This document shows, one piece after another, positions 1,710 to 10,448 of a stretch of DNA of 30,961 bases (within the stretch, counting starts at the first letter, position 1; each line of letters starts with the position of its first letter). The DNA is from a virus: positions 1 to 30,961 of the IMG/VR virus record IMGVR_UViG_3300028299_000131. One strand, given 5' to 3'. Below the pieces are notes generated by a model. The model was not told the DNA's origin and did no database searches. It worked only from the letters and a program-made list of their open reading frames with translations. Made by a program: the position numbers and the translations under genes.

Positions 1710-1888
1710 CCTGTCTGGGCTTGATGCTTTCCTAATGGCTATGGGAAAATCAATGCCCAGTGTGAAACCTCGTAATTAGGCGAGGGATTATCACCAAGCC
1801 CAGCAGGTCAAATTAAGTTCGGGTAGCTCCCGAATGAACTCTGGAAATAATGGCGGGCAACCCAGAGAGAGATTGACAAAACGCCCGC
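1710..1888 (+). ncRNA. Candidate structured RNA with a pseudoknot
   Basis: No reasonable ORF covers this stretch, but complementary segments are dense. Outer stem: 1710-1722 with 1796-1807 (12 pairs, one bulged T at 1714). Inside it, TGAT/TTTCC (1722-1731) pairs with GGAAA/ATCA (1744-1752), and GTGA...CCTCG (1762-1772) pairs with CGAGG...TCAC (1781-1794). Next, TTCGGG (1818-1823) pairs with CCCGAA (1829-1834) around a 5-nt loop. Finally CTCTGG (1839-1844) pairs with CCAGAG (1862-1867) while GCGGGC (1853-1858) pairs with GCCCGC (1883-1888), an H-type pseudoknot. CTGGGC (1715-1720) can alternatively pair with GCCCAG (1755-1760), so a switch is possible. I do not recognise a known family. The + strand is assumed from the neighbouring genes. 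Confidence 0.55.
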
Positions 1889-1890
1889 AC

Positions 1891-1917
1891 AATCTAACCT
1901 GAGATGAAGGAGGGGGA
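1891..1917 (+). repeat. Linker type B, copy 1 (stops in three frames plus RBS)
   Basis: This reads AATCTAACCTGAGATGAAGG and then AGGGGGA just before GTGATG. It recurs with one base change at 2459-2484. After TAA, the other two frames also close within a few codons (TGA in each). The purine-rich end GGAGGGGGA supplies the ribosome binding site of the 1921 gene. The AATCTAACC start is shared with the type A linker at 4639. Confidence 0.8.
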
Positions 1918-1920
1918 GTG

Positions 1921-2091
1921 ATGAAGGATAAATATAGGGAATTTGAGGAAATTAAAATATATTTCCGCATTCCTTTTACTATGTATTGGCTTGGTAGAAT
2001 TCAGGGCGAATGTCGGCACGAATGGAGTAAGCTTTATTTATTTGTTAAAGAATTTGATTGTGAAAACTGGTATTTTAAGATAGTTCACTAA
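1921..2091 (+). CDS. Small hypothetical protein, cassette gene 1
   Basis: The product has 56 residues (begins MKDKYREFEEIKIYFRIPF, ends FDCENWYFKIVH). It is rich in aromatic residues (Tyr, Phe, Trp) with two Cys residues spaced far apart; no domain is recognised. Translation is credible because the start is GTGATG directly after GAAGGAGGGGGA, the same arrangement used by other genes in this array. Its TAA stop is the first codon of the repeated 20-nt type A linker at 2089. The pairing of a linker on both sides suggests an exchangeable cassette; that is inference. Confidence 0.65.
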   Translation: MKDKYREFEEIKIYFRIPFTMYWLGRIQGECRHEWSKLYLFVKEFDCENWYFKIVH

Positions 2092-2108
2092 CCCCACAGC
2101 TTGAATAG
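2089..2108 (+). repeat. Linker type A, copy 1
   Basis: Exact 20-nt element TAACCCCACAGCTTGAATAG. It contains TAA in frame 1, TGA in frame 2 and TAG in frame 3, so any upstream reading frame ends here. It is followed by GAGGGGAGGG and the start of the 2123 gene. Five other identical copies lie at 3273, 3473, 4268, 4639 and 5399. Confidence 0.95.
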
Positions 2109-2122
2109 GAGGGGAGGGATGA

Positions 2123-2281
2123 ATGTTTGAATTGAAAAATCCACCAAGAATGAAATGGTATCATTGGCTTTTATATCCTTGGGCAAAAAGGTTTAGTTGT
2201 TTGGACGAGAACACATACCTGAAGGGATTTAGAATTTTCGGGAAAGTATATATTACAAAAATGACCAGCGTGGCTAATTAA
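2123..2281 (+). CDS. Small hypothetical protein, cassette gene 2
   Basis: The product has 52 residues, basic and aromatic-rich (MFELKNPPRMKWYHWLLYPW at the N-terminus, ending in TKMTSVAN). The start is ATG 2123; an ATG at 2119 gives only three codons, so it is rejected. A strong purine run GGAGGGGAGGG lies directly upstream, contributed by the linker. The stop TAA overlaps the AGGAGG of the next gene. A short hydrophobic/aromatic stretch (WYHWLLYPW) may associate with membrane but is too short for a confident transmembrane segment. No family recognised. Confidence 0.6.
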   Translation: MFELKNPPRMKWYHWLLYPWAKRFSCLDENTYLKGFRIFGKVYITKMTSVAN

Positions 2282-2292
2282 GGAGGATGAAG

Positions 2293-2448
2293 ATGAAATT
2301 AGAAGTTGATAGTTTTGATTACAGAGAGGCGATAAAAAAGGTAGAGAGTATGTTGGAAAATATTACTTGCAAATGCGGTGATAGCAATTTACAAGATATG
2401 CCTTCTGCTACTGAAATAGTGGATGTTGTAATTGATACGATTATATAA
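2293..2448 (+). CDS. Small acidic hypothetical protein with a CxC pair
   Basis: The product has 51 residues, starting MKLEVDSFDYREAIKKVESM and ending VVIDTII. ATG 2293 is preferred over ATG 2287 because TAAGGAGG sits 6-8 nt upstream of it. A Cys-Lys-Cys-Gly motif at residues 26-29 could bind a metal, but only two Cys residues are present, so this is weak. The first half looks helical and amphipathic. It has no linker upstream: the preceding stop TAA at 2279 runs straight into its ribosome binding site. Function unknown. Confidence 0.6.
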   Translation: MKLEVDSFDYREAIKKVESMLENITCKCGDSNLQDMPSATEIVDVVIDTII

Positions 2449-2458
2449 TCACACACCA

Positions 2459-2484
2459 ATCTAACCTGATATGAAGGAGGGGGA
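2459..2484 (+). repeat. Linker type B, copy 2
   Basis: It repeats the element at 1891-1917 with one base change (CTGATATG instead of CTGAGATG), and CACA/CACC precedes both. It provides stops in all three frames and the GAAGGAGGGGGA ribosome binding site used by the GTG start at 2485. Confidence 0.8.
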
Positions 2485-2655
2485 GTGAATAAATTCTTAG
2501 TAATAGCAGGTATGTGGTGTCTGACTGACGGTTGGTTTTCTATGTCGTTATATTGGGGCTGTAAGGCAGGGGAACGACAACAGACTTTCTGGCGTGACCA
2601 TTATATCAGGGTAATCAGGATTTTAATAGGGATAGGATTGATATGGGTAGCATAG
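2485..2655 (+). CDS. Small membrane-associated protein upstream of methyltransferase 1
   Basis: The product has 56 residues with a GTG start fixed by the linker-derived GAAGGAGGGGGA. The pattern is G-M-W-x-x-x-D-x-x-F-S near the N-terminus, Y-W in the middle, a basic segment WRDHYIRVIR, and a hydrophobic C-terminal helix ILIGIGLIWVA. A divergent relative lies at 3501 with the same motif order, and each of the two overlaps the start of a methyltransferase gene (here by 13 nt). Two hydrophobic segments flanking a polar middle suggest a membrane hairpin or monotopic protein. The constant pairing suggests translational coupling with the methyltransferase. Function unknown. Confidence 0.65.
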   Translation: MNKFLVIAGMWCLTDGWFSMSLYWGCKAGERQQTFWRDHYIRVIRILIGIGLIWVA

Positions 2656-3275
2656 ATTTAAGATTAGGCGACTGCCTTGAAATTATGAAGTCTATACCTG
2701 ACAAGTCAATAGACCTTGTGTTGACTGACCCGCCGTATGGTGTTGGTTTTAAATATGATAGTTTTGTAGATACACCTGAAAACTTAAAAACACTTATTGA
2801 TAGTTTTCTCCCAGAATGTTTGAGATTAAGTGAATTAGTGGCAGTTATGTGTGGAGTTAAAAATATGTGGTTATATCCCCAAGCTAATTGGTGTATTCCT
2901 TGGGTTTGTCCGGCTGGTTCAGGAAGTGGGCCCTTTGGTTTTAATTGTTGGACTCCGGTATTGATTTATGGCAAAGACCCATATTTAAAAAATAGACTTG
3001 GTTCAAGACCAGATGTTTTTATTACCAATAAAGCTAATCGTGAGGGCATAGCCAGTGAACATCCTTGTGCTAAACCCTTACCACCTTTGAAATGGTTAGT
3101 TGAAAGACTTACTATTAAAAAAGGTTTAAGTGTTTTAGACCCCTTTATGGGTTCAGGAACGACTGGCGTTGCTTGTAAGGAACTTGGCAGAAACTTCATC
3201 GGCATAGAAATATCAGAAAAGTATTTCAAAATCGCCGAAAGAAGAATAAACAATACTATGGAGAACTTACTTTAA
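2643..3275 (+). CDS. DNA methyltransferase 1, beta-type (N6-adenine or N4-cytosine)
   Basis: The product has 210 residues and modifies bases in duplex DNA using S-adenosylmethionine. The catalytic motif IV DPPYG is at residues 29-33 and the SAM-binding motif I, DPFMGSGTTG, starts at residue 166. Catalytic motif first, recognition region in the middle and SAM motif last is the beta-class order. HPCAKPLPPL before motif I fits the usual HPxxKP element. DPPY favours N6-adenine, though this is not decisive. The first ~33 and last 45 residues are nearly identical to methyltransferase 2 (3632), while the centre is unrelated. It starts inside the 2485 gene with only a weak AGGGATAGG upstream, so it is probably translationally coupled. 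No restriction endonuclease lies nearby, so an orphan protective or regulatory role is likely. Confidence 0.9.
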   Translation: MGSIDLRLGDCLEIMKSIPDKSIDLVLTDPPYGVGFKYDSFVDTPENLKTLIDSFLPECLRLSELVAVMCGVKNMWLYPQANWCIPWVCPAGSGSGPFGFNCWTPVLIYGKDPYLKNRLGSRPDVFITNKANREGIASEHPCAKPLPPLKWLVERLTIKKGLSVLDPFMGSGTTGVACKELGRNFIGIEISEKYFKIAERRINNTMENLL

Positions 3276-3292
3276 CCCCACAGCTTGAATAG
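3273..3292 (+). repeat. Linker type A, copy 2
   Basis: Exact 20-nt element; its TAA is the stop codon of methyltransferase 1. It is extended by TGGGTAAGAGGGAGGGGGA to the next start. CCCAC within it can pair with the downstream GTGGG as a 5-bp hairpin. The extended form is identical to copy 4. Confidence 0.95.
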
Positions 3293-3314
3293 TGGGTAAG
3301 AGGGAGGGGGAGTG

Positions 3315-3488
3315 ATGGACGAATTTGATATAGGTTTAATGTTTGTTCCTGTTTTGCGCTGGTGTCAAAAACACGAAATAAGATTTGTGGATTATGAACC
3401 GTCTTTCGTGCCTCAATGCCCCAAATGCAGGGAAGAATTTTTCAATAAACTTTCGCCGAAAGATAACCTTACTAACCCCACAGCTTGA
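3315..3488 (+). CDS. Small protein with CxxC motif, ending inside a linker
   Basis: The product has 57 residues, with GTGATG start after GAGGGAGGGGGA (ATG 3315; GTG 3312 is possible). A single CPKC zinc-knuckle-like pair lies at residues about 35-38, with one further Cys at 17 and a His at 20. One zinc ribbon half is not enough to call a domain. The last residues T-N-P-T-A are encoded by the linker element itself, and the stop is the TGA of its second frame at 3486. The 4310 gene ends the same way. This indicates that the linker was joined to the 3' end without regard to frame. Function unknown. Confidence 0.6.
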   Translation: MDEFDIGLMFVPVLRWCQKHEIRFVDYEPSFVPQCPKCREEFFNKLSPKDNLTNPTA

Positions 3489-3492
3489 ATAG
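3473..3492 (+). repeat. Linker type A, copy 3
   Basis: Exact 20-nt element. Here it is entered in frame 2, so it encodes N-P-T-A and its TGA is the stop. It is followed by a short GAGATGAA ribosome binding site and GTG 3501. Confidence 0.95.
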
Positions 3493-3500
3493 GAGATGAA

Positions 3501-3641
3501 GTGATTAAGTTAATCGGTATGTGGCTATTCTGCGATAGCATATTCTCCCTGCGGACTTACTGGGACAAAGAGGATTGGTTCGCACAAGGGATAAGGTGGA
3601 CAAGACTCGTATGTAGTTTGGCGGTGATGATATGGGGATAG
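3501..3641 (+). CDS. Small membrane-associated protein upstream of methyltransferase 2
   Basis: The product has 46 residues, GTG start, AGGAGATGAA upstream. It is a divergent, shorter relative of the 2485 product: G-M-W-x-F-x-D-x-x-F-S, then Y-W, a basic GIRWTR segment and a hydrophobic end LVCSLAVMIWG. It overlaps methyltransferase 2 by 10 nt, mirroring the 2485/2643 pair. Its first 14 nt (GTGATTAAGTTAAT) are identical to the first 14 nt of methyltransferase 3 at 4682, although the rest of the two genes is unrelated. That suggests a cassette junction running a few codons into the gene. Function unknown. Confidence 0.65.
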   Translation: MIKLIGMWLFCDSIFSLRTYWDKEDWFAQGIRWTRLVCSLAVMIWG

Positions 3642-4270
3642 ATTTACGATTAGGCGATTGCCTTGAGATTATGAAGTCTATCCCCGACAAGTCAATAGAC
3701 CTTGTGCTGACTGATCCTCCTTATGGGATAAATGTATGTAAAAACGGAACAGTGGGGGGGGGAAATCTTGCGAAAGTTAAGGACTATGGAAAATGTGAGT
3801 GGGATAGTAAAATACCAAGTAGAGATTATTTTAAGGAAATGATTAGAATTAGCCATAATCAAATAATCTTTGGGGGAAACTATTTTCTTGAATATCTTAC
3901 TAATACACCTTGCTTCATAGTATGGGATAAAAATAATACAGGAAACTTTGCTGATTGTGAATTAGCTTGGACTTCTTTTAAGACAGCTACAAGACAAATA
4001 AAATATACTTGGAATGGGTTTATACAGGGAAATATGAAAGAAAAAGATTATCGCCAACACCCTACACAAAAGCCCCTGTCGGTAATGAGATGGATATTAG
4101 AAAAATATAGTGAAAATAACCAAACTATCCTTGACCCCTTCATGGGTTCAGGAACTACTGGCGTAGCTTGTAAAGAACTCGGCAGGAACTTCATCGGCAT
4201 AGAAATATCCGAGAAATATTTCAAAATCGCCGAAAGAAGAATAAACAATACTATGGAGAACTTACTTTAA
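3632..4270 (+). CDS. DNA methyltransferase 2, beta-type, with internal poly-G tract
   Basis: The product has 212 residues. Motif IV DPPYG starts at residue 28, HPTQKPLSVM lies before motif I, and the SAM-binding DPFMGSGTTG starts at residue 168: beta-class order. Its ends match methyltransferase 1 closely in protein and DNA: 96 nt (4217-4312) spanning its 3' end and linker are identical to 3222-3317. The centre (residues about 33-165) is different, so target specificity is expected to differ. Nine consecutive G (3754-3762) lie just after motif IV in frame as V-G-G-G-N; slippage by one base would abolish the protein. The centre resembles adenine methyltransferases with an F-G-G-N-Y-F segment. 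The start overlaps the small 3501 gene, suggesting translational coupling. Confidence 0.92.
   Translation: MGIDLRLGDCLEIMKSIPDKSIDLVLTDPPYGINVCKNGTVGGGNLAKVKDYGKCEWDSKIPSRDYFKEMIRISHNQIIFGGNYFLEYLTNTPCFIVWDKNNTGNFADCELAWTSFKTATRQIKYTWNGFIQGNMKEKDYRQHPTQKPLSVMRWILEKYSENNQTILDPFMGSGTTGVACKELGRNFIGIEISEKYFKIAERRINNTMENLL
3754..3762 (+). repeat. Poly-G tract, 9 nt, in methyltransferase 2
   Basis: Nine consecutive G, ending before AAATC, at codons 41-44 of the gene. Tracts of this length are prone to slipped-strand mispairing, the known basis of phase variation in several bacterial methyltransferase genes. Confidence 0.9.
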
Positions 4271-4287
4271 CCCCACAGCTTGAATAG
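4268..4287 (+). repeat. Linker type A, copy 4
   Basis: Exact 20-nt element; its TAA stops methyltransferase 2. The following TGGGTAAGAGGGAGGGGGA is identical to copy 2, so the whole gene-end-plus-leader has been duplicated. Confidence 0.95.
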
Positions 4288-4309
4288 TGGGTAAGAGGGA
4301 GGGGGAGTG

Positions 4310-4654
4310 ATGTATTACGGTTTCCACGATGAGGATTACAGAGAGGGAAAAAGAGATTATGAGTATAACGGTAGAGAAGATTCATTTGAAAGAGATAGAC
4401 ATTTCGGCGGTGAACGAGATGAAGCATACTTCCAGGGCTTTGATGAAGCAAAAAGAGATGAGGAAAGACGCCAAGAAGAAAGACGGGAAGAAGAAAGAGA
4501 ACAAGAACGGCGTTATCACGATGAGCAAGAACGCAGAAGGTCAATTGAAATGCAAGAAGCAGAGGAAAATGATAGGCAAGCCCAAGAAGATTATAATAGG
4601 CAGCAAGAGGCAGAACATCTCCAGCAGGAAGAAGAATCTAACCCCACAGCTTGA
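4310..4654 (+). CDS. Highly charged coiled-coil protein, ending inside a linker
   Basis: The product has 114 residues from ATG 4310 (or 115 from the adjacent GTG 4307), preceded by GAGGGAGGGGGA. The N-terminus is Tyr/Asp/Gly-rich (MYYGFHDEDYREGKRDYEY). From residue about 40 on it is almost entirely Glu, Arg, Gln and Lys (for example RRQEERREEEREQERR), which predicts a long single helix or coiled coil. The last residues S-N-P-T-A come from the linker, with the stop at its frame-2 TGA. A second long frame (4329-4658) is also open over the same stretch, but it lacks a ribosome binding site and is best seen as a by-product of purine-rich codons. Function unknown. Confidence 0.65.
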   Translation: MYYGFHDEDYREGKRDYEYNGREDSFERDRHFGGERDEAYFQGFDEAKRDEERRQEERREEEREQERRYHDEQERRRSIEMQEAEENDRQAQEDYNRQQEAEHLQQEEESNPTA

Positions 4655-4658
4655 ATAG
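4639..4658 (+). repeat. Linker type A, copy 5
   Basis: Exact 20-nt element, preceded by AATC as in type B linkers. It is followed by TGGGCTAACTTGAGGGAGGG and GGA, a leader longer than in the other copies. It encodes the N-P-T-A end of the 4310 product and supplies the ribosome binding site of methyltransferase 3. Confidence 0.95.
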
Positions 4659-4681
4659 TGGGCTAACTTGAGGGAGGGGGA

Positions 4682-5401
4682 GTGATTAAGTTAATTCTGG
4701 GCGATTGTTTAGAGAAGATGAAGGAGATACCAGATAAGAGCGTGGATTTAGTATTGACTTCGCCGCCTTATAATATGGGGGGGGTGGCATTAGGTTATCA
4801 ACCTCTTTCAACTGTGGGGCAAAAGCACTATGGAGATTATGAGGATAAAAGAACTGAAAAAGAATATGTGGATTGGTGTATGGTAGTAATTAGGGAATGT
4901 TTGCGAGTTTCCAGATATGTATTTTGGAATGTGCAGTTTGTGAGAAGCACTCGGGAAATGATTTTTACCTTACAAAATGTTTTTAGGGATAATCTGAAAG
5001 ATATATTTATTTGGCAAAAACAAGCAGTAGCAAACATAACAGCAAAAGATGGTGGTATGGCAAAGGGATGGGAGTATGTATTTATGTTAGGGCAGGATAA
5101 TAAGTCAACCTTTGAATATAATAATTTCCCCAAGAATAGGTATGTTCCTAATATAAAAACTTGGTATAAGAAAGAAACCTTTAAGGAACATCACGCTACT
5201 TTTACAAGGGAAATGGCTTTTTACTTTATAGATAATTTTACTAAAGAAGGCGATACAGTTTTAGACCCTTTTTCTGGCACAGGAACAACTTTAGTCGCCG
5301 CAAAAGAATTAAAAAGAAAATCAATCGGGATAGATATAGACCCAAATTATAATAAAATCGCCGAGAGAAGAATAAACCAGACTATGGAGAATTTACTTTA
5401 A
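4682..5401 (+). CDS. DNA methyltransferase 3, beta-type (N4-cytosine or N6-adenine)
   Basis: The product has 239 residues, GTG start with GAGGGAGGGGGA from the linker. Motif IV is SPPY (residues 27-30), typical of N4-cytosine enzymes but found in some adenine enzymes, and motif I is DPFSGTGTT, starting at residue 195. The order is beta-class. The N-terminus (LGDCLEKMKEIPDKSVDLVL) and the last 45 residues, ending INQTMENLL, resemble methyltransferases 1 and 2, but more distantly than those two resemble each other. The centre is again different. Eight consecutive G (4777-4784) follow motif IV as M-G-G-V, the same relative place as the G tract of methyltransferase 2. The stop is the TAA of linker copy 6. 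Confidence 0.92.
   Translation: MIKLILGDCLEKMKEIPDKSVDLVLTSPPYNMGGVALGYQPLSTVGQKHYGDYEDKRTEKEYVDWCMVVIRECLRVSRYVFWNVQFVRSTREMIFTLQNVFRDNLKDIFIWQKQAVANITAKDGGMAKGWEYVFMLGQDNKSTFEYNNFPKNRYVPNIKTWYKKETFKEHHATFTREMAFYFIDNFTKEGDTVLDPFSGTGTTLVAAKELKRKSIGIDIDPNYNKIAERRINQTMENLL
4777..4784 (+). repeat. Poly-G tract, 8 nt, in methyltransferase 3
   Basis: Eight consecutive G at codons 32-35, directly after the catalytic SPPY motif. Its position matches that of the 9-nt tract of methyltransferase 2, although the surrounding protein sequence differs. Confidence 0.9.
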
Positions 5402-5418
5402 CCCCACAGCTTGAATAG
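5399..5418 (+). repeat. Linker type A, copy 6
   Basis: Exact 20-nt element; its TAA ends methyltransferase 3. It is followed by GAGGAAGGG and ATG 5428. This is the last copy; no further one is seen in the window. Confidence 0.95.
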
Positions 5419-5427
5419 GAGGAAGGG

Positions 5428-6059: not shown

Positions 6060-6206
6060 ATGGAAGATAAGCAAGAGCAGATTATTAGGGAGTTAAAGCG
6101 CCGGGCCGGGGAGATTAACTTCGGCACGCTTACAGTTGAGTTTAAGGTGTCGGAAGGTAAAATTATGGCGGGAGATATAATCCAAAAGAGAGAAAAATTA
6201 GGCTAA
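6060..6206 (+). CDS. Small DUF2292 (YezD)-like protein
   Basis: The product has 48 residues, ATG 6060 immediately after the previous TAA. The pattern IIRELKRRAGEINFGTLTVE, then F-K-V-S-E-G-K-I, matches small DUF2292/YezD-type proteins: a first helix, then a G-T/S-L/V-T-V strand, and a second strand G-K-I. The function of that family is not established. No strong ribosome binding site is visible, but translational coupling with the preceding gene is plausible (adjacent stop and start). It is the last gene before the terminator at 6235. Confidence 0.6.
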   Translation: MEDKQEQIIRELKRRAGEINFGTLTVEFKVSEGKIMAGDIIQKREKLG

Positions 6207-6234
6207 ATTAGGCTGACACGAATAGGCGTGAGGT

Positions 6235-6272
6235 CCTTATTCCAATAGTGATATTGGGATAGGGGCTTTTTT
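6235..6272 (+). terminator. Intrinsic terminator between accessory and late regions
   Basis: The left arm 6235-6247 (CCTTATTCCAATA) pairs with 6252-6264 (TATTGGGATAGGG) over 13 positions including two G-T pairs, with loop GTGA. Then G, C and six T (6267-6272). This is a textbook Rho-independent structure. A smaller CACG/CGTG hairpin lies just upstream (6217-6230). The terminator ends only 7 nt before the next likely start codon. Confidence 0.9.
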
Positions 6273-6279
6273 GTTTATT

Positions 6280-6534
6280 ATGTCTAAAAAATTAAACAAT
6301 GAATTTTACCTTCAAAATTGGATAGAATTTGTGCAAATTTTAAGATATTTTCGGGCGCGCAGGTTGACTATCTTGGAGTGTAAGTTAATCCTTTGGCATT
6401 ACTATAACAAGCTGCCTTATCGTCGATTAGCACATATGGAAGGCAAGCATTGGTCGAAACAGTATTGCGAGCAAGTTATCAAGAAAGGATTAGCTAAAAT
6501 AAAAATTACCTTACTTTTAAGAAATCATAAGTAA
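6280..6534 (+). CDS. Sigma region 4-like / late transcription regulator candidate
   Basis: The product has 84 residues from ATG 6280 (TTG 6271 lies within the terminator U-tract and is less likely). Residues about 32-80 read LTILECKLILWHYYNKLPYRRLAHMEG ... WSKQYCEQVIKKGLAKIK, matching the helix-turn-helix of sigma-70 region 4 (ERxVLxLRYYxxxxYxxIA ... SxxxVxxxxxxAxxKL). Small proteins of this kind near terminase genes often control late genes (RinA/ArpU-like); that role is inferred. No ribosome binding site is seen between the terminator and the ATG, so it may be read from terminator readthrough or from an internal start. Confidence 0.65.
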   Translation: MSKKLNNEFYLQNWIEFVQILRYFRARRLTILECKLILWHYYNKLPYRRLAHMEGKHWSKQYCEQVIKKGLAKIKITLLLRNHK

Positions 6535-6539
6535 ACTTT

Positions 6540-6610
6540 AAGTAGAGGGCGCAAGGAGCACAAGCCAGATAAACGCTATTAAGCAAAAAGACTTCTCATG
6601 CGCCCTACTT
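6540..6610 (+). other. Imperfect inverted repeat upstream of the terminase genes
   Basis: AAGTA(GA)GGGCGCA at 6540-6553 is complementary to TGCGCCCTACTT at 6599-6610, twelve pairs with a two-base bulge, enclosing 45 nt without an ORF. The intergenic gap is 85 nt. Possibilities are an RNA hairpin in the 5' leader of the terminase operon or a DNA site such as a packaging site. The position beside the terminase genes favours the latter only weakly. Confidence 0.5.
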
Positions 6611-8465: not shown

Positions 8466-10448
8466 ATGCGAGAGACCACTCATCCAGAAGGAGTAAAAGA
8501 AAAAAACGCGGTTGAGATTACCCAGGAGATAACCGACTTCATCATATCTACCGCCAAAGATATTGAGGCGGAAAAAAGTAACCGCAGCACTTGGGAAAGT
8601 AAAATAGACGAACTAATAGACTTGCGCTATGGATATAGACAGAAGAAGAACCATCCCTGGCCTGATGCAGCTAACTACTCAATCCCCCTCATAGACGCGC
8701 ATATAAATAAAGCTAAGCCTTCTTATGTCAACCTTGCGCTTGGGATATCCCCAGTCTGCACCTTTGAACCCTTCGGCGCGGAGGATATCGAACCGGCGAA
8801 GAAGAGAGAAGTTTTATTTGACTGGCGGATGCGGACGAAGGTTAAGTTTGCCCAGCCTTATTGTATAGGCGTTGATAAGGGATTGGAACAAGGCTCGGTA
8901 GTGTTTAAGATTGTCTGGAATTATACTACGCGTAATTATCAAGATGAACTCGACTTAGAGGATTTAGATGAGAAGACTTTAGCAGTCTTGCAAGACCCAC
9001 GCACTACTGACAATATCCTTGCTACTATAATCCAAGAAGAGTTATTTGTTGATGTAGACTTTGAGGAAAATATCGAGGAGATTAAAAAAGCAGTTATAAA
9101 ATTTAGAGAAGGTAAGACGAAGTTTAAATTTAATTTCCTTGAAGTTGAGAATAACGAACCGGAAATAACCGCCTGTAGTGTAAGAGATGATATCATCGTT
9201 CCTATTGACACGACCGACATCCAATTTGCCCGCTTCATTGACCAGCCGTTCTGGAGGACGACCACGCAGTTGAAGAAGGCAATGCGCGATGAGAAATACA
9301 AAGAGTATCCTGATGAGGATATCAATGCCTGGGGAAGCAAGGAAACTAAAAAAACATCCTCTTCAGGTAGGCAAGACGAGATAATCCTGCTCCACGAAAC
9401 CTGCGTCTGGTATGACATAAACGAAGATGGCATCAAGGAACGCTGTATTTCTACTTGGCCGGATAATGCTCCCGCCAGTGTCTTGAGGTTTATCGAAGTT
9501 CCTTATGAACACGGATTGTTCCCTTATGTCCAGGTTAGGCGTGAATTAAATGATGCAGGTTTTTATACCTCAAGAGGTATTCCCGCGCTTGATGAGGATT
9601 ATCAGAAAGGAATATCATCGGCAGTAAATCAAGCAGAAAACAATGGGGTTCTTGCCAATCCTGTAATAGTAATGCGGCGTAATACAGTTAGCAATATCAA
9701 GAATCGAAGATATATTCCCAATGAAACCGTGGAAACCAATGGCGACCCCAGCGATTATCAAACAAGGCAATTTCAAAATGTCTCCCAACCAGTATTATTC
9801 CAGTTAGCGCAGTATTTAAAGAGTTGGGCTGACCAGAGAATTGGTAATATCAGCTCAGGGTTAAGCGAGGTTAATAATCTTCCAGGTGCAGGGCCAGGAG
9901 GTAAAAAGACAAAGGCGGAAATAGACTTAATTTCTTCCTTACAAGGTGAAGTCCAGTCGCTCGACTTGATTGTTTGGCAGATGCAGATGGCGGATGTCTA
10001 TTACCAGATTGACGCTTTATATAACCAATACGGCGATGAGGAAGAGGAAATTATTATCACAGGCCAACCACCGCAGAAAATAAGCCGGCGAGAAATACAG
10101 GGGCAATGGAATATCATCCCTAACGGCAGGCTTGACAATACCAATCCGGTCTTAAAGGCAAACAAGGCGTTTAACTTGATGAAGATATTTGTAGGTGATC
10201 CGGAAATAAACCAGTATGAGCTTAAAAAATTATTCCTTACTGATTATGACCATCGTGTTGCCAATAAGATTTTATATAAAGAAGAAGATTTGCAAAGAAG
10301 GCAAATGCAGATGCAACAGATGACAGAAATGATGAAGAAGAAGGCAATCCAGGAAGGCGTAGATTTAAAACAGATAGAGATATTGCTTGAGGTCTATCGG
10401 GCAACTTTGTTGACTCCGATTCAAGGCAAACAATTTGCGCCCGATTAA
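8466..10448 (+). CDS. Portal protein
   Basis: The product has 660 residues, start ATG 8466 with AGGGGATAAATT upstream. It forms the ring at the capsid vertex through which DNA passes. Features typical of P22/podovirus-type portals are the N-terminal segment HPWPDAANYSIPLIDAHINK (residues about 64-82), a long wing/stem region with an acidic insertion, the central GFYTSRGIPALDEDYQKG, and a C-terminal charged helical barrel rich in Gln/Met (RRQMQMQQMTEMMKKK). Length, position after the terminase and absence of a fused protease fit. The portal is not followed by a separate head protease gene; scaffold and capsid come next after two small genes. Confidence 0.92.
   Translation: MRETTHPEGVKEKNAVEITQEITDFIISTAKDIEAEKSNRSTWESKIDELIDLRYGYRQKKNHPWPDAANYSIPLIDAHINKAKPSYVNLALGISPVCTFEPFGAEDIEPAKKREVLFDWRMRTKVKFAQPYCIGVDKGLEQGSVVFKIVWNYTTRNYQDELDLEDLDEKTLAVLQDPRTTDNILATIIQEELFVDVDFEENIEEIKKAVIKFREGKTKFKFNFLEVENNEPEITACSVRDDIIVPIDTTDIQFARFIDQPFWRTTTQLKKAMRDEKYKEYPDEDINAWGSKETKKTSSSGRQDEIILLHETCVWYDINEDGIKERCISTWPDNAPASVLRFIEVPYEHGLFPYVQVRRELNDAGFYTSRGIPALDEDYQKGISSAVNQAENNGVLANPVIVMRRNTVSNIKNRRYIPNETVETNGDPSDYQTRQFQNVSQPVLFQLAQYLKSWADQRIGNISSGLSEVNNLPGAGPGGKKTKAEIDLISSLQGEVQSLDLIVWQMQMADVYYQIDALYNQYGDEEEEIIITGQPPQKISRREIQGQWNIIPNGRLDNTNPVLKANKAFNLMKIFVGDPEINQYELKKLFLTDYDHRVANKILYKEEDLQRRQMQMQQMTEMMKKKAIQEGVDLKQIEILLEVYRATLLTPIQGKQFAPD

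Follow-up and report, generated by a model that had tools for sequence, protein, structure and literature searches.

A stretch of approximately 180 bases between two genes of an environmental phage very probably folds as RNA, and we put at about even odds, a probability near 0.5, the reading that it is a cis-acting intercistronic RNA, placed where the replication module borders on the accessory genes and acting on its own mRNA. The grounds are a fold in excess of chance, a conserved outer stem and a tie to the upstream gene instead of the downstream one. The element lies in an IMG/VR virus record of 30,961 bases, termed the window in its full length, which carries terminase and portal genes. 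A covariance-model search finds no Rfam 15 family in the window at gathering scores, with GOLLD, ROOL, riboswitches and ribozymes included, in agreement with a preliminary description that could match the sequence to no known RNA. The element is an uncatalogued, two-member orphan RNA for which we infer a function. For a group of environmental phages about which little is known, it is an additional conserved RNA that offers a concrete stem to test; broader importance hinges on further members.

The structured element occupies positions 1706-1888 of the + strand, on which all the features of the element are placed, and this non-coding gap separates the upstream gene from the first accessory cassette as originally described. 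The upstream gene (1355-1705, + strand, 116 amino acids) is itself preceded by a replication-initiation gene. It had been called helicase-loader-like, a name based on position only that no library confirms; the match obtained is to phrog_30578, for which the function is unassigned. The structured domain begins four bases past the stop codon of this gene. At the other end, the last pseudoknot stem finishes at 1888 and the first linker (1890-1921, + strand), which is repeated at 2457-2488 and contains the next gene's ribosome-binding site, starts at 1890, so the element does abut the linker as proposed. Further 3′ come several small genes in succession, along with three DNA methyltransferases that are related to one another, with repeated linkers between. 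Gene order and strand suggest that the mRNA carrying the element is early and polycistronic.

Comparison with shuffled sequence, the check that had been advised, bears out the fold. The segment 1706-1888 folds at -63 kcal/mol with a z-score of -3.3, and none of 200 shuffles reaches so low an energy; a z-score this low occurs in eight of 412 windows of the virus (2%), 1706-1888 included. Domain 1 alone (1706-1812) gives a z-score of -4.1, the nested part only of domain 2 gives -1.2. An H-type pseudoknot as strong as that of domain 2 arises in 0.6% of shuffles, and the arrangement in which one strand is shared by two partners in 0.15%, the features of these more specific tests, domain 1 included, having been picked after the preliminary description had named them. 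Across the 31 kb, all virus windows that reach the same pseudoknot strength overlap the 1839-1888 site.

Enumeration of the stems in 1706-1888 recovered all those previously named. Domain 1 is closed and multi-branched, an outer stem enclosing two inner hairpins. The outer stem, first given as 12 bp, consists of 13 pairs, 1710-1713 with 1804-1807 and 1715-1723 with 1795-1803, such that the 5′ arm extends over 1710-1723 with U1714 bulged and the 3′ arm over 1795-1807. The apical hairpin (1728-1748) pairs UUUCC with GGAAA (1728-1732 and 1744-1748) at a probability of 0.47, whilst the second inner hairpin (1760-1794) combines GUG...CAC with CCUCGU/GCGAGG (1768-1773 and 1780-1785), the core pair probability being 0.999. 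Domain 2 comprises a 7-bp hairpin at 1817-1835 (1817-1823 with 1829-1835, pair probability 0.91) and the pseudoknot, formed by stem S1 (1839-1867, pairing 1839-1844 with 1862-1867) and stem S2 (1853-1888, pairing 1853-1858 with 1883-1888).

One homologue, in record L110, was located by synteny through alignment of the upstream protein with the L004 orthologue. The L110 orthologue of the 1355-1705 gene is 79% identical in protein and 75% in DNA sequence, and directly after its stop codon, at 3355-3459, CCCUCUGGGCUGGUG...CAUCAGCCCAGGGG form a stem of 14 uninterrupted pairs around two inner hairpins, like domain 1 of the window. The two outer stems match, CUGGGCU...AGCCCAG, with the bulged U kept. 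Compensatory changes, which the preliminary description had advised seeking in homologues, are present: in a stem alignment that was fitted to the covariance model, eight of the 13 outer-stem pairs are unchanged, four differ in both partners and one is opposite a gap, giving four of 12 comparable pairs with paired changes and none broken. Two apparently changed pairs of helix 6 were discounted because the positions lie in L110 coding sequence. A covariance model derived only from the window sequence places L110 in register with an E-value of 0.0015 when only the gap is searched, and over 35.6 kb the L110 element is the only other match, at 0.18, both values being rough since the calibration was shortened. 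In shuffles of the L110 gap, a test chosen after the match had been seen, a 14-bp stem appears in three of 20,000 and the CTGGGCT...AGCCCAG arms in one of 20,000.

The gap that follows the orthologue is 125 bases in L110 as against 212 in the window, and although the upstream gene is common to both the downstream genes are unrelated. No such element follows the orthologue in L004, where the upstream protein is 66% identical, which weighs against the intercistronic reading. Judged from two members, one phage each, the element travels with the upstream replication gene and not with the downstream genes, which points to division of an operon at the mRNA level rather than to a metabolite switch.

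Conservation does not extend to all parts of the structure. Both stems of the H-type pseudoknot are found in the window as first described, but the domain of hairpin plus pseudoknot is absent from L110. Similarly, the proposal that strand 1715-1720 can pair with either 1755-1760 or 1798-1803 holds for the predicted folds of the window, where both pairings occur, but the 1755-1760 partner is absent from L110 and a second GCCCAG for the switch was not found in the L110 gap. The comparison therefore supports neither the pseudoknot domain nor the switch partner. The inner hairpins of the two elements could not be aligned with confidence.

The alternative hairpin of the window, CUGGGCUUGAU...AUCAAUGCCCAG (1715-1760, + strand), competes with the outer stem and is not kept in L110. 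The two are near balance in full context, with pair probabilities of 0.53 for the outer stem and 0.43 for the hairpin. When the chain is folded as it grows, the hairpin (-20.8 kcal/mol at chain end 1762) is the minimum free energy structure for chain ends from about 1762 to 1801, whereas from 1803 onwards it is the outer stem. On the basis of energy alone a refolding path during transcription is therefore predicted.

If the element is indeed an intercistronic cis-acting RNA, then it would be contained within an early polycistronic phage mRNA, right after a gene of the replication module. The transcript would fold into a closed multi-branched domain, after which the window phage adds a hairpin and an H-type pseudoknot. 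In the cell the strong local hairpin at 1715-1760 would form first, to be displaced once the 3′ arm at 1795-1807 emerges. Most likely the element might govern processing or stability, as a barrier comparable to the RNase III sites between phage genes; an RNA that modifies the elongating RNA polymerase would be a less likely role. A bold extension, and a distinctly unlikely one, is that the two members are the first of a new class of phage RNA, one that accompanies a replication gene and refolds during transcription from the hairpin to the multi-branched domain and pseudoknot, thereby setting when replication genes give way to accessory genes.

The early mRNA of phage T7 carries intergenic RNase III processing sites, which are irregular stems between genes of one transcript. 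The present element would likewise place irregular stems between genes that are transcribed together early on, but its stem encloses a branched domain with a pseudoknot after it, and cleavage is a proposal. The put RNA of phage HK022 consists of two stem-loops, approximately 70 nt in all, downstream of early promoters; it is phage-encoded and cis-acting and causes antitermination by binding RNA polymerase, with no need of a partner protein (PMC9378689). The element resembles put as a compact, phage-encoded, cis-acting candidate in early genes. However the window and L110 structures are each a closed multi-branch domain, about 100 nt long, rather than two stem-loops of about 70 nt, and no promoter was found near the element. 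Inverted repeats with a variable spacer also characterize the extended start-associated sequences of cluster K mycobacteriophages, which conform to one consensus upstream of the starts of many genes per genome (PMC3203893), whereas the stem described here is found once per genome, the window having a single full copy. GOLLD and ROOL, cited in the preliminary description as phage RNAs, are likewise structured but both are much larger.

Several other explanations merit consideration. Two mutually exclusive and nearly isoenergetic folds, placed ahead of a gene that has its own ribosome-binding site, would suit a sensing leader, riboswitch- or protein-responsive, that acts on the accessory cassettes as 1715-1720 switches partners. 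However neither form of riboswitch expression platform, terminator or occluded ribosome-binding site, was found at the element: there is no intrinsic terminator on the + strand, and opening of the ribosome-binding site requires 3.41 kcal/mol with the element and 3.65 kcal/mol without it. The switch partner is missing in L110, and in the two members compared there is no conserved aptamer upstream of related genes, the downstream genes being unrelated and the inner part not conserved. The lack of a terminator, the exposed ribosome-binding site and the unrelated downstream genes argue against a classical riboswitch over the cassettes and tell equally against the original suggestion that the element might control the whole cassette array. 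We consider a sensing leader unlikely.

Both strands of 1706-1888 fold equally well, so that the segment on its own cannot distinguish RNA from DNA, and its perfect inverted repeats adjoin replication genes, as might be expected of an origin or primosome assembly site in which single-stranded DNA folds. The L110 element is informative here. Its stem includes two G-U pairs on the + strand which cannot form on the other strand, leaving the stem continuous only as + RNA, and it folds at -44.7 kcal/mol on the + strand compared with -35.1 kcal/mol on the - strand, a difference of 9.6 kcal/mol. These properties favour RNA of the + strand. There is also no change in GC skew at the site, and a DNA-level replication element appears unlikely as well.

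A compact folded domain with no tie to the downstream gene might represent a separate small phage RNA that acts in trans, but 1300-2300 contains no sigma-70-like promoter, with the caveat that the consensus may not fit the host, and no + strand terminator; we regard this as improbable. That inverted repeats cluster here by chance, or survive as a functionless relic in decay, draws on the 2% of virus windows that attain a z-score of -3.3 and on there being two members only, but is very improbable given that the same stem recurs at the same place in L110 with paired changes. The frame 1702-1902, with a GTG start overlapping the upstream stop, is open save one TAG and ends just before the next ribosome-binding site, but a short gene here is extremely improbable: TAG terminates other genes of the virus and so is not reassigned, the codon score is -0.03 per codon where virus genes average 0.19, there is no protein relative in viral contigs and the L110 gap differs in length and sequence.

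Searches for other relatives gave nothing credible. At E-values up to 5 there are just two Rfam matches, both to snoRNAs and at chance level, as are the Rfam matches of L110, and when phages and plasmids were searched with the region by blastn only short chance matches came back. Exact patterns in viral contigs gave 26 matches for the outer stem, with no further similarity, and 13 for the pseudoknot loop, among which a model search picked out one at chance level (L082, E-value 6.5). A covariance model run over related records produced nothing credible. Model R1 was run over 384 genomes from the phylum to which an Omnitrophica MAG belongs, and its matches had E-values down to 3e-5; in the four neighbourhoods that were read (L102, L103, L106 and L107) these lie inside open reading frames resembling real genes and were therefore called chance. 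No copy of the 1355-1705 gene turned up in 952 genomes from four phyla, in phages or in plasmids. Long inverted repeats in related phages occur mostly at chance frequency, the expectation having been estimated by hand.

Other features of these genomes were observed. The linkers between cassettes in 1890-5421 of the window are near-exact repeats, TAACCCCACAGCTTGAATAG in several copies and CAATCTAACCTGA.ATGAAGGAGGGGGAGTGA in two. The near-identical record L032 is without window positions 3509-5398, the gap falling exactly between two linker copies, and cassettes look as if they are lost or gained through recombination at the linkers. The three N6/N4 DNA methyltransferase genes stand in a row at 2643-5401 and their 3′ ends are similar over 180 nt. 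The strongest fold of the virus, z-score -6.8, is at 6151-6334, two hairpins ending in a T run that by eye resemble a terminator. A long hairpin, AAGTAGAGGGCGCA...TGCGCCCTACTT, occupies 6541-6608 in a fold window of z-score -4.0, and falls within a stretch that is 90% identical in L032. In positions 1-200, at the very end of the contig, a unit of about 24 bases (gaattcatcagtagtggcc..ggg) is repeated in tandem. In L004 a long H-type pseudoknot at 8663-8793, with a 12-bp stem (8663-8674 and 8765-8776) and a 17-bp stem (8700-8716 and 8777-8793), buries a GGAGG before the next gene, a frame that by eye is like a CHAP-type lysis enzyme; its best and second-best stems were matched in none of 4000 shuffles.
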